Assembly: GCA_030753015.1 (NCBI GenBank)
Contig: JASMDC010000069.1
Coordinates: 1-9,179, forward strand
Reading direction: 5' to 3'
Source: Candidatus Undinarchaeales archaeon
GTDB taxonomy: Archaea; SpSt-1190; JASMDC01
DNA length: 9,179 bases
In this document: one piece after another, positions 447 through 5,774 of the stretch
Layout: each line of letters starts with the position of its first letter
How positions within the stretch are numbered: the first letter of the stretch is position 1
The notes under the pieces: model-generated
Database searches by the model: none
Told to the model about the DNA's origin: nothing
The model's input: only the letters and a program-made list of their open reading frames with translations
Translations under genes and position numbers: made by a program

Positions 447-1682
447 ATGCCTCCCGTGTCCCCTCAACCGGAGTCGATCGTCCTTGATAACGGTCTTCGT
501 GTGCTCCTTCTTCCGACAAGAGCTCACACGGTCGGTATCGCCATAGGTATCGATGTGGGTTCCGTCCATGAGACGCCAGGACAGGCAGGCATTGCTCACG
601 CAGTCGAGCACTGCGTCTTCAGGGGCACTCGGTCGCGCAGCCCGTTCGAGCTCACGGCCTCCGTGGAACGCGCCGGTGGGATGCTCAACGCCTGGACCGT
701 CGAGGAGAACACGGTGTTCTACGCATCGATGCCCCCACAGGGATGGCAAAAGGGACTCGATGCGCTGGCGGACATCGTCATATCTCCCGCATTCCCCGAA
801 AAGGGTGTCGAGCGGGAACTCGCAGTCATCCTCGAGGAGGTGAGCTCGGTCGATGACGATCCCGCAGAGCTCGTGTGGCACAACGCCCTTGGAGCGCTCT
901 ATGGCGACCATCCCGCCGGGCGGGACGTGCTCGGTACCGCCGCAACGGTCCGCCGGCTCAAGACCGAGGACTTGGCAGCCTTCCACGCGGAAAACTACAC
1001 TCCGGACTCGATGGTGGTCTCGATCGCAGGGAGCTTTTCCAAGCACGACGTCCAAGAACGCATAACACGGCTCTTTGGCGACCTTGGTGGTAAGAGGACA
1101 CGTCGAACGCTCCCCCCACCCCCACAAAGCCCTCTTCGAGACAACATCGAGGTGCGTCGCGAGCTCACACAGGCTCACGTGGTTGTGGCCCACCCCTTCC
1201 CCTCCGCCAGCGATCGGCTCCATGCAGCGCGATGTGCGATGGCCGTCCTCGCAGGGAGGGACATCTCCCGTATCCGGTGGGAGGTACGTGAGCAACGTGG
1301 GCTTTCGTACGCGGTCGATGGCGAGTACGGGTTCGGTGCGGGCTGGGGGTATATGGGGGTCTACCTCGCTCCGGAAGCGCAACGCGCTACGGAGGCGGTC
1401 GACGTCATCCGGCGGGAGCTCGCCCGTCTTGCCGCAGGTGAGCTCGAGCAGCGGGAGCTGGACGAGGTCCTGACCTGGATCCGTGCCCTCCATCTCCGGG
1501 AGCTCGAGAGCCCCACGGAGCTGGCAGTGAGGATGGCGGGGGACGAGCTCGTGCTCGGGGAGAACGGTTGGATCCTGCGCCAGCAGCGCCTCGACGAGGT
1601 GGGAGTGGAGGATGTCGTTGCCGTGGCATCGGACCACCTCCGCGACCGTGAGGTCGTCTCGCGTGTGCTACCCCTGAAATAG
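447..1682 (+). CDS. M16 family zinc metallopeptidase (processing-peptidase-like)
   Basis: This 411-residue protein belongs to the M16 (pitrilysin/mitochondrial processing peptidase) family. The inverted zinc motif HxxEH is HAVEH at residues 51-55, with E54 as catalytic base. The third zinc ligand is the expected glutamate about 76 residues on (E131 in ILEEVSSVDDDP), so the catalytic half looks intact. The C-terminal half carries the family signature RGLSYAV (about residues 284-290), used for substrate binding and half-domain contact. A length near 410 is normal for single-chain M16B enzymes, which act as dimers or with an inactive partner; no second M16 gene is visible here. No signal peptide is seen, so it is probably cytosolic. 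ATG 447 is chosen because the TATA box at 404-412 predicts a very short leader. The substrate is unknown; peptide or protein turnover is the general expectation. Confidence 0.9.
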   Translation: MPPVSPQPESIVLDNGLRVLLLPTRAHTVGIAIGIDVGSVHETPGQAGIAHAVEHCVFRGTRSRSPFELTASVERAGGMLNAWTVEENTVFYASMPPQGWQKGLDALADIVISPAFPEKGVERELAVILEEVSSVDDDPAELVWHNALGALYGDHPAGRDVLGTAATVRRLKTEDLAAFHAENYTPDSMVVSIAGSFSKHDVQERITRLFGDLGGKRTRRTLPPPPQSPLRDNIEVRRELTQAHVVVAHPFPSASDRLHAARCAMAVLAGRDISRIRWEVREQRGLSYAVDGEYGFGAGWGYMGVYLAPEAQRATEAVDVIRRELARLAAGELEQRELDEVLTWIRALHLRELESPTELAVRMAGDELVLGENGWILRQQRLDEVGVEDVVAVASDHLRDREVVSRVLPLK

Positions 1683-1699
1683 GGTCGCGTCTTCGTCTG

Positions 1700-1715
1700 C
1701 GAAACCTTTTTATAT
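1700..1715 (+). promoter_or_regulatory. BRE/TATA promoter of the psmB-fttA operon
   Basis: CGAAACC followed by TTTTTATAT is a near-ideal archaeal promoter: a purine-rich BRE (1700-1706) directly abutting the TATA box (1707-1715). Transcription start is predicted near 1735-1740, leaving a leader of about 35-40 nt that contains a Shine-Dalgarno site, unlike the leaderless genes elsewhere in the window. It begins 18 bp after the M16 stop codon, so the T-run could also help end the M16 transcript. Confidence 0.75.
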
Positions 1716-1761
1716 CATACTGCCTAGTTGCCTCCCCTGCCTCGCTTCTGGGCTTGATCCC

Positions 1762-1767
1762 GAGGTG
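1762..1767 (+). promoter_or_regulatory. Ribosome binding site deciding the psmB start
   Basis: GAGGTG matches the 16S 3' end and sits 7 nt before ATG 1775. It overlaps the first codons of the longer in-frame TTG reading (1754), so it supports ATG 1775 as the real start. Confidence 0.75.
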
Positions 1768-1774
1768 TTCATTC

Positions 1775-2425
1775 ATGAGAGATACCATCTCCACAAAGGA
1801 TGTTGAGAACGTCGTCCGAACTGGTACCACTACCGTCGCTTGCATCGGCAAGGATGGTGTCGTCCTTGCGGCCGACAAACAGAGCACTGCCTTCTACGTA
1901 TCGTCGCGCGCGGAGCGAAAGATCCACAAGATCGGCGATCACGTCGGCATGACCATCGCTGGAAGCGTCGGCGATGCCCAATACCTGGTCCGGGTCCTGC
2001 GCGCGGAGGCCTCGCTCTTCAAGACCATGCGAGGGCGGGAGATAACGCCCAAAGGCGTCTCCACCCTCCTTGCTAACATCATGCACGGGATGAGGTACTA
2101 TCCCTTCATGACCCTGCTCCTCATGGGCGGTTACAACCCCCAGAACGGTGGAGAGATCTACTCCATCGATCCAATCGGCGGTATCTCTACCGGCGAGGGT
2201 TACTTTGGCTCAGGCTCGGGTTCCCCGATGGCCCTGGGTATAATGGAGGCAGAGTACAAGGACGACATGCCCATCGACGACTGCGTCAAGCTCTGCGTCA
2301 AGTCCATCAAGTCGGCTCGCGCACGTGATGTCTACACCGGTGGGTGGGGACTTATCGTCGCTATCATCGACAAGGACGGCTATAGAGAGGTCCCTCAGGA
2401 CAAAGTGAATAAGCTGCTCGAATAG
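1775..2425 (+). CDS. psmB: 20S proteasome beta subunit
   Basis: The gene encodes a 216-residue proteasome beta precursor, the catalytic subunit of the archaeal 20S core, which degrades proteins unfolded by PAN-type ATPases in the cytoplasm. A 17-residue propeptide ends in RTG, and autocleavage before TTTVAC would expose T18 as the N-terminal threonine nucleophile, leaving 199 mature residues. Supporting active-site residues are in place: D34 (canonical D17), K49 (canonical K33, one residue closer than usual), S148 in GSGSP (canonical S129) and D185 in ARDVYTGG (canonical D166). T188 replaces the usual S169, a conservative change. The start at ATG 1775 is preferred over TTG 1754 because of the RBS at 1762-1767. 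fttA follows after 30 bp, and the psmB-fttA neighbourhood is also known in other euryarchaea. No alpha subunit is in the window. Confidence 0.97.
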   Translation: MRDTISTKDVENVVRTGTTTVACIGKDGVVLAADKQSTAFYVSSRAERKIHKIGDHVGMTIAGSVGDAQYLVRVLRAEASLFKTMRGREITPKGVSTLLANIMHGMRYYPFMTLLLMGGYNPQNGGEIYSIDPIGGISTGEGYFGSGSGSPMALGIMEAEYKDDMPIDDCVKLCVKSIKSARARDVYTGGWGLIVAIIDKDGYREVPQDKVNKLLE

Positions 2426-2455
2426 ACCGGCATTACGCCCGGCAGCACTTGGAAC

Positions 2456-4354
2456 GTGTCACCAATGGCATCGATTATCGACAAGGTAGTGAAAGGCCTC
2501 CCGAAGGACGCCATGATCACCGAAACACTCTACGAGGGCGCCTATATCGTGCTCTACACGAAGAACTCGGAGTTCTTCCTCAACGCCGGGAACTTGGTCA
2601 AGGACCTCGCCCGCAAGTATAAGAAACGCATCGAGGTGCGCCCGGACAGCTCCATCTCCATGAAGCCCGAACTTGCGGCAGCGATCATCCGCGAACAGGT
2701 CCCTGATGAAGCAGGGCTCAACGACATCTCGTTCGAGCTCTTCATGGGCCGCGTGATCATCGATGCGGAGAAGCCCGGGCTCGTGATCGGCAAGAGCGGC
2801 AAGACGCTCAAGGAGATCAAGCGCCGTATCCTGTGGGCACCAGTGATCGAGCGGACACCGGCCATCAACTCCGAGATCATCAAGACCGTCAGGCTCACCC
2901 TTCGCGACGAGTCACGGTTCCGCAAACGCTTCCTGAACAAGCTGGGCAATCGCATCTATGGTGAGCCGAAGAAGACCTCCTGGGTGCGGCTCTCCGCACT
3001 TGGCGGGTTCCGCGAGGTGGGCCGTTCATGCCTCCTGCTCCAGACCCCCGAGTCCCGGGTGCTGCTGGATTGCGGTGTCAACGTGGCCTCGTTCCAGAAG
3101 GGCTTCCCCCACCTGGACGCTCCGGAGTTCGATATCAATGAGCTGGACGCGGTGGTCGTCACCCACGCCCACCTGGACCATGGCGGTTTCGTTCCCTATC
3201 TGTACAAGTTCGGGTACGAGGGCCCGGTCTACACGACCGCGCCCACGAGGGACATGATGACCCTGCTCCACATCGATTACATCGACGTCACCAGCCGCGA
3301 GCGTGGGGACAGCATCTACTCCTCCAACGATATCAAGGAGTTCATCAAGCACTCAGTGACCCTCAACTACGGCGAGGTCACCGACATAACCCCGGACATC
3401 CGCCTCACCCTCCATAACGCAGGCCATATCCTCGGAAGTTCGATCTGTCATCTTCACATCGGCAACGGACTGTACAACGTCGTGTATACGGGCGACCTGA
3501 AGTTCGCCAAGACACGTCTGCTCGATTCCGCGCAGACCTGCTTCCCCCGCGCCGAGACCCTTATCATCGAGAGCACGTACGGGCTCAAGGACGACATCCA
3601 ACCACCGCGACAGAACGCCGAGAAGTTCCTTCTCTCGGTGGTGAACAAGACGCTCGAGCGCGGTGGCAAGGTGCTCGTGCCCGTCCTGGGTGTGGGCCGC
3701 TCACAAGAGCTCATGGTGCTGCTCGAGTCGGCGTACCGGAAGGGCCTGCTCCCTAAGGACGCGAAGATCTACGTGGACGGGATGGTCTGGGACGCGACCG
3801 CCATCTATACCGCATATCCCGAGTATCTTTCGGAAACCGTGCGCAATCTGGTTTTCCGCCGCGACCACAATCCCTTCCTCTCCGACATCTTCAATCGCGT
3901 CGGTTCACAGGCGGAACGCAAGGAGGTCGTCGGCGGCCCGCCGTGCATCATAACGGCAACATCCGGTATGCTGACGGGCGGCCCCTCTGTGGAGTACCTT
4001 CGGACGCTCGCTGACAACGAGAAGAACAGCATGATCTTCATCAACTACCAGGCCGAAGGATCGCTGGGCAACAGGATCCAGCGTGGCTGGCGAGAGGTGC
4101 CCATGGACATTGTACAGGGCAAACGGCAAGTGCTCAAGATGAAGATGGAGGTCCATACGGTCGACGGATTCTCGGCCCACTCGGACCGCAACCAGCTCGT
4201 CAACTTCGTCTACGGTATCAAGCCGCGGCCCCAGCGCATCCTCGTCAATCACGGCGAGTCGAGCAAGTGCCAGGACCTGGCCCGTGCGCTCCATAAGCAG
4301 GTCCGGTCCGAGACGATGGCGCCACGGAACCTGGATGTCATCCGGCTTTATTAA
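2456..4354 (+). CDS. fttA: KH-domain beta-CASP ribonuclease FttA (aCPSF1), transcription terminator
   Basis: This 632-residue protein is the archaeal CPSF73 homologue that cleaves nascent transcripts at their 3' ends and releases RNA polymerase. Two N-terminal KH-like domains occupy about residues 1-165, the second with a GKSG loop (112-115) that contacts RNA. The metallo-beta-lactamase core follows with D205, HAHLDH (237-242), H324 and D347. The inserted beta-CASP domain has motif A E372 (IESTYG), SGMLTGGP (503-510), motif B H575 (GFSAHSD) and motif C H599 (LVNHGE). All expected metal ligands are present, so both endo- and exonuclease activity are plausible. Length is normal for the family. 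The start is GTG 2456 or ATG 2465; neither has a clear ribosome binding site, and the choice changes only three residues. No promoter is seen in the 30-bp gap after psmB, so it is probably co-transcribed. The cytosolic complex acts with RNA polymerase and Spt4/5 in studied archaea. Confidence 0.97.
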   Translation: MSPMASIIDKVVKGLPKDAMITETLYEGAYIVLYTKNSEFFLNAGNLVKDLARKYKKRIEVRPDSSISMKPELAAAIIREQVPDEAGLNDISFELFMGRVIIDAEKPGLVIGKSGKTLKEIKRRILWAPVIERTPAINSEIIKTVRLTLRDESRFRKRFLNKLGNRIYGEPKKTSWVRLSALGGFREVGRSCLLLQTPESRVLLDCGVNVASFQKGFPHLDAPEFDINELDAVVVTHAHLDHGGFVPYLYKFGYEGPVYTTAPTRDMMTLLHIDYIDVTSRERGDSIYSSNDIKEFIKHSVTLNYGEVTDITPDIRLTLHNAGHILGSSICHLHIGNGLYNVVYTGDLKFAKTRLLDSAQTCFPRAETLIIESTYGLKDDIQPPRQNAEKFLLSVVNKTLERGGKVLVPVLGVGRSQELMVLLESAYRKGLLPKDAKIYVDGMVWDATAIYTAYPEYLSETVRNLVFRRDHNPFLSDIFNRVGSQAERKEVVGGPPCIITATSGMLTGGPSVEYLRTLADNEKNSMIFINYQAEGSLGNRIQRGWREVPMDIVQGKRQVLKMKMEVHTVDGFSAHSDRNQLVNFVYGIKPRPQRILVNHGESSKCQDLARALHKQVRSETMAPRNLDVIRLY

Positions 4355-4759: not shown

Positions 4760-5176
4760 TCAGGAGAATTTCGTCGATATAAGGTCCACGCGTCCGAGCC
4801 CCCGGTCCCTGCTGTAGGCCTCGTTCACACCTCTGGAGAGCATGAGCGCGGCCTTGACGCCCTGGGAGAGGGAGAGCTCGTAGCTCCGGGCGAGCTCGCT
4901 CGCGCGCACGAGGTCCTTGGATGTGGACTCAACGACCTCCAGGTTCCTGAACGATAGGATGGCCTCCAACACCCGCTTCACCTCAGAGCCCTTCCCTACG
5001 GCCTCAAGGAACCACCCTACTTCCAGCAGCACGAGCGTGGAGGTGAGAACCCGTTCACCCTGCTCGAGCCTAGTGAGGATCCGAGCAGCCGTGGGGCCTC
5101 GCTCGGCATGGGCGGTGATCGTGTCGATGAGCACATCCGAGTCCAGGAACCTTATGCCGTGCTCATCGTCGCCCAC
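4760..5176 (-). CDS. vapC: PIN-domain toxin VapC, active site partly degenerate
   Basis: The 138-residue protein has the PIN nuclease layout: FLDSDVLID with D12, the second acid E52 in LVLLEVGWFLEA, and D124 in YSRDRGLGRV. VapC toxins normally cleave tRNA or rRNA using a four-acid Mg site. At the third acid, where homologues read LSxxDAxxAA, this protein has LSLSQGVKAA, so Q105 replaces aspartate. Activity may be weakened or lost, or the protein may act mainly as a DNA-binding co-repressor with VapB. The start is GTG 5176, 4 bp after the vapB stop. A GGAGG at 5190-5186 inside the end of vapB sits 9 nt upstream, so the two are translated in tandem. The family call is firm; toxicity is uncertain. 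Its 3' end lies only 18 bp from the LSm TATA box. Confidence 0.85.
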   Translation of the reverse strand: MGDDEHGIRFLDSDVLIDTITAHAERGPTAARILTRLEQGERVLTSTLVLLEVGWFLEAVGKGSEVKRVLEAILSFRNLEVVESTSKDLVRASELARSYELSLSQGVKAALMLSRGVNEAYSRDRGLGRVDLISTKFS

Positions 5177-5180
5177 GGGG

Positions 5181-5435
5181 TCAGTCCTCCCTCACGAGGT
5201 CCCCGAGAACGTGGCGCTTGATCGTGGCCTGCGGATCGGCCTCGTCGAGCCGGACGGCACCCTGTAGGAAAGAGGCAGGATTGTCGTGACGTCGGAGCGG
5301 GATGAGCACCAGTGAACCCTCCTGCTCCATGAAGAGCATCTCGTCCCCGACGCGCAGGCCATAGCGTTCACGCAGTTCTGGAGGAATGGTGACCCGCCAA
5401 TCATTGCGAATTCGGCACGAGCGTCCTTTTGCCAT
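5181..5435 (-). CDS. vapB: AbrB/SpoVT-type antitoxin VapB
   Basis: The 84-residue protein begins with a swapped-hairpin AbrB DNA-binding domain (about residues 4-48). Its typical stretch is WRVTIPPELRERYGL, followed by RVGDE and LVLIP. The C-terminal tail (about 50-84), rich in Asp and Glu, is the usual segment that wraps round and blocks the cognate VapC. Such antitoxins bind their own promoter and repress the operon. ATG 5435 is preferred over upstream in-frame starts reaching 5639, because the BRE/TATA box at 5461-5475 predicts transcription start only about 5 nt before this ATG and the upstream extension is low-complexity and AT-rich. Codons 5-9 contain a 14-base string identical to a common cloning adapter (see findings), but the frame runs through it without a break. 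vapC follows after 4 bp. Confidence 0.88.
   Translation of the reverse strand: MAKGRSCRIRNDWRVTIPPELRERYGLRVGDEMLFMEQEGSLVLIPLRRHDNPASFLQGAVRLDEADPQATIKRHVLGDLVRED
5186..5190 (-). promoter_or_regulatory. Ribosome binding site of vapC
   Basis: GGAGG on the minus strand lies within the last codons of vapB and 9 nt before GTG 5176. It fixes the vapC start and shows that the second gene of the pair depends on Shine-Dalgarno initiation while vapB is near-leaderless. Confidence 0.75.
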
Positions 5436-5460
5436 TCTTTTGGGGAAATGTCGCTCATGG

Positions 5461-5675: not shown

Positions 5676-5684
5676 ATGTATAAA
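5676..5684 (+). promoter_or_regulatory. TATA box of the candidate C/D sRNA
   Basis: ATGTATAAA contains TATAAA at 5679-5684, the same core as the YkgJ-gene promoter at the far end of the window. Counting 28-29 nt from its first T gives a start at 5707-5708, exactly the first base of the terminal stem of the sRNA. No protein frame on the + strand uses this promoter. Confidence 0.6.
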
Positions 5685-5706: not shown

Positions 5707-5770
5707 CGGCGGCGATGAGGAAGAAACAGGATCTGAGTTATCGATGAGGATCCTTATGAGTTCCGAGCCG
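5707..5770 (+). ncRNA. Candidate C/D-box sRNA guiding methylation of tRNA-Met C34
   Basis: A 64-nt segment has the full archaeal C/D layout. The terminal stem is CGGC (5707-5710) pairing GCCG (5767-5770), followed by a 3-nt bulge as in a k-turn. Box C is GCGATGA (5712-5718), then a 14-nt guide, box D' CTGA (5733-5736), a 4-nt spacer, box C' TCGATGA (5741-5747), a 15-nt guide and box D CCGA (5763-5766). Both tandem G-A pairs of each k-turn can form. The D guide contains TTATGAGT (5754-5761), complementary to ACUCAUAA, the loop of CAU-anticodon tRNAs. By the N+5 rule G5758 pairs with C34, a methylation site guided by C/D sRNAs in haloarchaeal elongator tRNA-Met. The weak points are C instead of U at the second base of boxes C, C' and D. 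A TATA box predicts transcription start at 5707-5708. It lies beside the TPR gene's stop. Confidence 0.6.
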
Positions 5771-5774
5771 CCAT

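Follow-up and report, generated by a model that had tools for sequence, protein, structure and literature searches.

Several RNAs that direct 2'-O-methylation of the wobble base of tRNA-Met have been described. The haloarchaeal sRNA sR-tMet guides formation of Cm34 in elongator tRNA-Met (PMC4033218), and Joardar et al. (2011, RNA Biol 8:782; cited in PMC6601510) give pre-tRNA as its substrate in the title of their paper. A C/D sRNA for position 34 of tRNA-Met has been reported in three Pyrococcus species (PMC7994747), human SNORD97 and SCARNA97 are C/D guides for Cm34 of elongator tRNA-Met(CAU) (Vitali and Kiss 2019, PMC6601510), and a C/D-type RNA is linked to elongator tRNA-Met in the DPANN archaeon Nanoarchaeum equitans (PMC3491384). 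Since sR-tMet, the Pyrococcus guides and SNORD97/SCARNA97 share this job, the kind of guide considered here is already known; an earlier note on the present DNA had pointed to such a guide outside the haloarchaea, which holds true but is no surprise given the Pyrococcus report.

The window analyzed here, the whole stretch of 9,179 nt, is one entire contig of a 117-contig, 3.85-Mb assembly. The earlier note had singled out positions 5750-5766, and a guide and box D do lie there, but most of the RNA was left out. Judged by its anatomy, fold and architecture, the complete box C/D sRNA gene runs from terminal stem to terminal stem at 5708-5772 on the plus strand, on which all of its elements given below lie. 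The terminal stem is a perfect pairing of GGCGGC (5708-5713) with GCCGCC (5767-5772), and between its strands box C (AUGAGGA, 5715-5721), box D' (CUGA, 5733-5736), box C' (AUGAGGA, 5744-5750) and box D (CCGA, 5763-5766) are present in order, C/C' and D being variants of RUGAUGA and CUGA. The spacer from C to D' is the 11-nt D' guide region (AGAAACAGGAU, 5722-5732), a 7-nt loop separates D' from C', and the spacer from C' to D is the 12-nt D guide (UCCUUAUGAGUU, 5751-5762); about 12 nt is the canonical archaeal C/D spacing. By the geometry of k-turn rules, the terminal stem and boxes C and D can form a k-turn, with the 6-bp G+C stem, a 3-nt loop (5714-5716), tandem G.A pairs and a G-C pair replacing U.U, in that the U5-to-G change of box C would face the U2-to-C change of box D. 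Such a compensating G-C pair would also explain the variant state of both boxes. An earlier placement of box C at 5712-5718 (GCGATGA) and box C' at 5741-5747 (TCGATGA) was rejected, as it gives 14- and 15-nt spacers and clashes with the 6-bp stem; the AUGAGGA placement at 5715 and 5744 is preferred because of its 11- and 12-nt spacers and compensated k-turn.

A putative archaeal TATA box (TATAAA, 5679-5684, plus strand), read from the sequence, is centered about 26 bases upstream of the terminal stem start at 5708, which is the usual archaeal promoter distance. Two genes of the opposite strand, one MazE-like and one TPR, flank the gap that holds the sRNA gene, which ends just past the stop of the TPR gene. 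Elsewhere in the window, a PIN-domain protein adjoins the MazE/AbrB-like protein (4763-5176 and 5184-5458, minus strand), which looks like a VapBC-type toxin-antitoxin pair, and genes for an M16 peptidase, a proteasome beta subunit and aCPSF1 (FttA) follow one another on the plus strand at 447-4351.

The sRNA folds better than its shuffles (z-score -3.7). Its lowest-energy fold pairs the D' guide region with the 5' end of the D guide (5751-5754), and this predicted fold would hide that end until the target or proteins displace the D' pairing. The real window holds the two-motif C/D architecture once, and none of 3000 block-shuffled windows holds it. The motif GATGA-N1-12-TATGAG-NN-CYGA likewise occurs once in the 3.85-Mb genome, where its control has no match, and of 394 archaeal genomes 149 contain it, compared with roughly 15 that contain a reversed control pattern. 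A BLASTN search of the sRNA against 60 relatives gave chance matches only; such sRNAs are too short and divergent for BLASTN, and patterns were therefore used instead.

The D guide carries TTATGAGT at 5754-5761, followed by one more T at 5762 and then box D. As the earlier note had claimed, this sequence is complementary to a CAU anticodon loop. Its proposed register is also correct, since the C of ACUCAUAA, that is, C34, has as its partner G5758, the fifth base upstream of box D. Two CAU tRNAs were found in the same genome, an elongator (L026) and an initiator (L022), the latter having A1-U72 and, in its anticodon stem, three G-C pairs; the loops of both read CUCAUAA, the sequence on which the earlier proposal depended. 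What that proposal had missed is that the guide continues into an intron. The elongator gene is interrupted after position 37 (CCAGA CUCAUA|AGGCCCGG... AUCUGG), its precursor thus reads ACUCAUA|AGG..., and the guide CCTTATGAG of the window fits this intron: bases 5752-5761 form 10 contiguous, in-register Watson-Crick pairs with A31-A37 and the first three intron bases of the unspliced precursor. The spliced elongator tRNA-Met offers 8 bp, so that the duplex of 8-10 bp looked for by the earlier note is reached with either form. Substrate duplexes of 8-10 bp give high methylation in vitro (Yang et al. 2016, as cited in PMC7089733). Among the 40 tRNA genes of the genome, in-register matches to tRNAs other than the two CAU tRNAs are at most 6 bp. 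The D' guide, tested against the tRNAs, has a best match of 7 bp and no convincing target, and it is not conserved in other genomes of the class.

The earlier note had also named tRNA-Ile2 (CAU) as a candidate target. That idea, and with it any competition from this tRNA, is rejected: no tRNA-Ile(CAU) was found among the tRNA genes of the genome, and none of the 10 genomes of the class (G000-G009) encodes TiaS (PF08489), which two outgroup archaea do have. The genome does carry an intron-bearing tRNA-Ile(UAU) (L027 1501-1602; G000:C22:36877-36978), a tRNA found in only 2 of 167 archaeal genomes (PMC6000648).

Six class-mates (G001, G003, G005, G006, G007 and G008) have an intronless elongator tRNA-Met with ACUCAUAAUC, and in all six the guide takes the form GATTATGAG-NN-CTGA; a complete C/D sRNA is present in five of them, and G008 was read for the C'/D half only. 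These GATTATGAG guides fit positions 31-40 of their own intronless tRNA-Met; they form 10-12 bp with it but only 8-9 bp with the precursor of the window's genome, and the window's guide in turn forms 8 bp with the class-mates' tRNAs. The guides differ at the bases that lie opposite positions 39-40 when the tRNA is intronless and opposite intron bases 2-3 when the precursor is the partner. Their alignment suggests that the window's guide arose by insertion of CCT into GGAT-TATGAG, together with a shift of box C'. With a strict guide pattern, no C/D-like guide was detected in the f3 class-mates G002 and G004, which form the closest family, or in G009; the elongator tRNA-Met found in G002 and in G009 lacks an intron, which predicts a GATTATGAG-type guide for those two genomes. 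The D' guides of the class-mates' sRNAs (L151-L154, L211 and L212) are unlike that of the window. GATGACTCACAGTTACTCTGA is common to the D' guides of two genera (G001 and G007), which suggests a conserved second target there.

We read the sequence after CUCAUA in the CAU tRNAs of 80 of the 149 motif-bearing genomes. In intron-bearing tRNAs, the 5' bases of the guide mostly complement the first intron bases, the complementary intron/guide sets including GGG/CCC, AGG/CCT, AGC/GCT, AGU/ACT and ACAA/TTGT. Covariation was then scored with one genome per family, picked by hand, in 21 families with intron-bearing CAU tRNAs. Counted as contiguous pairs, the guides of these families total 58 against the first bases of the intron, compared with 13 against the spliced sequence; when the guides are permuted, the mean is 24 (for the precursor P is about 1e-5, for the spliced form 0.03), and a sign test of precursor against spliced form runs 15 to 3. 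The 21 families are not fully independent, guides within the GGG/CCC lineages are interdependent, and a few may be chance matches, so that together with the choice by hand these points weaken the numbers and leave their direction unchanged. In several families (e.g. G122, G123 and G330) a guide was found but does not match the intron, and such guides may have been picked up by chance. In families f44 and f24 (e.g. G091, G147, G323 and G374) the guide reads CCGTATGAG; if the covariation is true, it predicts elongator tRNA-Met introns starting CGG wherever this is the guide. Tracking of the tRNA's intron by the guide across many archaea is the new part of this work. We found no paper that states it, in a literature coverage that is incomplete, and we claim no priority. 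Some CAU tRNA introns themselves contain TATGAG, complementary to their own anticodon loop (G123:C71:4171-4204, G319:C7:91088-91121 and G043:C36:24650-24683), and the G123 intron reads CGTATGAGTAATGA, which is guide-like with a poor box D. In these introns TATGAG might simply take part in the usual pairing at the splicing site, or it might act as a cis guide like that of N. equitans.

With the anatomy, the pairing and the guide-intron covariation established here, we infer that the RNA is expressed, and we think it very probable that this box C/D sRNA methylates the 2'-O of C34 of its own elongator tRNA-Met, acting on the intron-containing precursor. The sRNA would assemble with L7Ae, Nop5 and fibrillarin; a search for the proteins of the C/D RNP, which covered fibrillarin, found this protein encoded in the same genome (E 1e-84). 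In the unspliced precursor, guide bases 5752-5761 would then pair with A31-A37 and intron bases 1-3, which would place C34 opposite G5758, five bases before box D, for methylation of its ribose. A31 and the intron bases would distinguish the elongator from the initiator, whose CUCAUAA loop is the same; because the duplex includes bases that the initiator lacks, the intron would serve as a specificity tag. Since the pairing reaches into the intron, methylation would precede splicing.

The pairing and the covariation favour the precursor as substrate, and other readings of the same guide can be weighed against them. The guide might act on the spliced elongator tRNA-Met, the two extra intron pairs being coincidental: the spliced form matches over 8 bp, which suffices in vitro according to published work (cited in PMC7089733), so action after splicing is possible, and the guides of the class-mates do act on an intronless tRNA. 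We nevertheless regard this as improbable, as the very bases by which the window's guide differs from those of its class-mates would lose the pairing to 39-40 and gain pairing to the intron, and the same relation of guide to intron is found in many families. It is considerably less probable still that the initiator tRNA-Met, which the earlier note had entertained as a further target, is an additional or the principal substrate for Cm34 guided by the sRNA. Its loop is indeed identical to that of the elongator, and initiators reported to carry Cm34 are those of M. maripaludis and P. furiosus (PMC7668247); however, the guide makes 7 Watson-Crick pairs and one G-U with the initiator, with mismatches at positions 39 and 40, against 10 pairs with the elongator precursor. 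Least probable of all is a degenerate C/D relic or a functionless chance likeness, to which the variant boxes AUGAGGA and CCGA, the low Rfam score and the self-paired guide end might point, because a G-C pair in the k-turn would make the two box changes compensatory, no base of the stem is mispaired, both spacers have canonical lengths and the guide fits the intron found in its own genome.

Returning to methylation of the precursor, we lean slightly towards a broader reading, in which the change in this lineage was a 3-base guide insertion (GGAT[CCT]TATGAG) with a shift of box C', and wobble methylation is tied to the unspliced state across the archaea. Sister lineages with and without the intron, whose guides match either form, amount to a natural experiment. 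They make it possible to test whether the intron persists through the specificity that it lends to wobble methylation, and whether methylation is required before splicing.

The host appears to resemble DPANN archaea and not a euryarchaeon, as judged from comparisons of its sequences. The nearest named relatives of its aCPSF1 are from DPANN genomes (up to 58% identical), and over 3.66 kb there is complete identity between class-mate G008 and a record labelled Candidatus Altiarchaeota DPANNHV_H2.bin.71; the euryarchaeal lineage assumed in the earlier note is therefore unsupported. The assembly, with a contamination estimate of 5%, measures 3.85 Mb against 0.6-1.1 Mb in the nine class-mates, so it is either unusually large, if the class is DPANN-related, or partly a mixture. 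Contig C83 carries a guide that fits the intron of contig C25, unlike the guides of the class-mates, and this argues that these contigs come from one organism. No match to the standard 16S rRNA 515F pattern turned up in the genome, even when one mismatch was allowed, the rRNA being either absent from the bin or divergent.

Compared with the systems described at the outset, the window sRNA adds a class near the DPANN archaea to the known occurrence of such guides in haloarchaea and Pyrococcus. The C/D-like RNA of N. equitans lies inside the tRNA-Met intron itself, whereas the window sRNA is a separate gene. SNORD97 and SCARNA97 are eukaryotic and are two cooperating RNAs, and their likeness to the window sRNA is one of job and not of demonstrated homology. 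The closest known RNA is sR-tMet (RF02163), whose D guide (..UAUGAGU) likewise selects C34 of elongator tRNA-Met and whose Rfam consensus shares a CCGA-type box D and a terminal stem rich in G+C. The window sRNA matches this model at 28.3 bits (E 0.07), below the gathering score of 50, and the score alone is unconvincing because an unrelated site in the same genome reaches 31 bits; the other matches to the model in the genome (L001 and L003-L006) are noise, with neither the guide nor the C/D layout. We therefore do not assign the window sRNA to RF02163, although it would work like sR-tMet. It differs from sR-tMet in that the 5' part of its guide matches its own intron (AGG) and in that its host is of another class, one close to DPANN genomes. 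Its second Rfam match is sR41, which has the same CCCUAUGAG guide type and is probably the Pyrococcus guide; guides of the sR41/Pyrococcus type end in CCC and fit introns that begin GGG, whereas the guide of the window ends in CCT and fits AGG.
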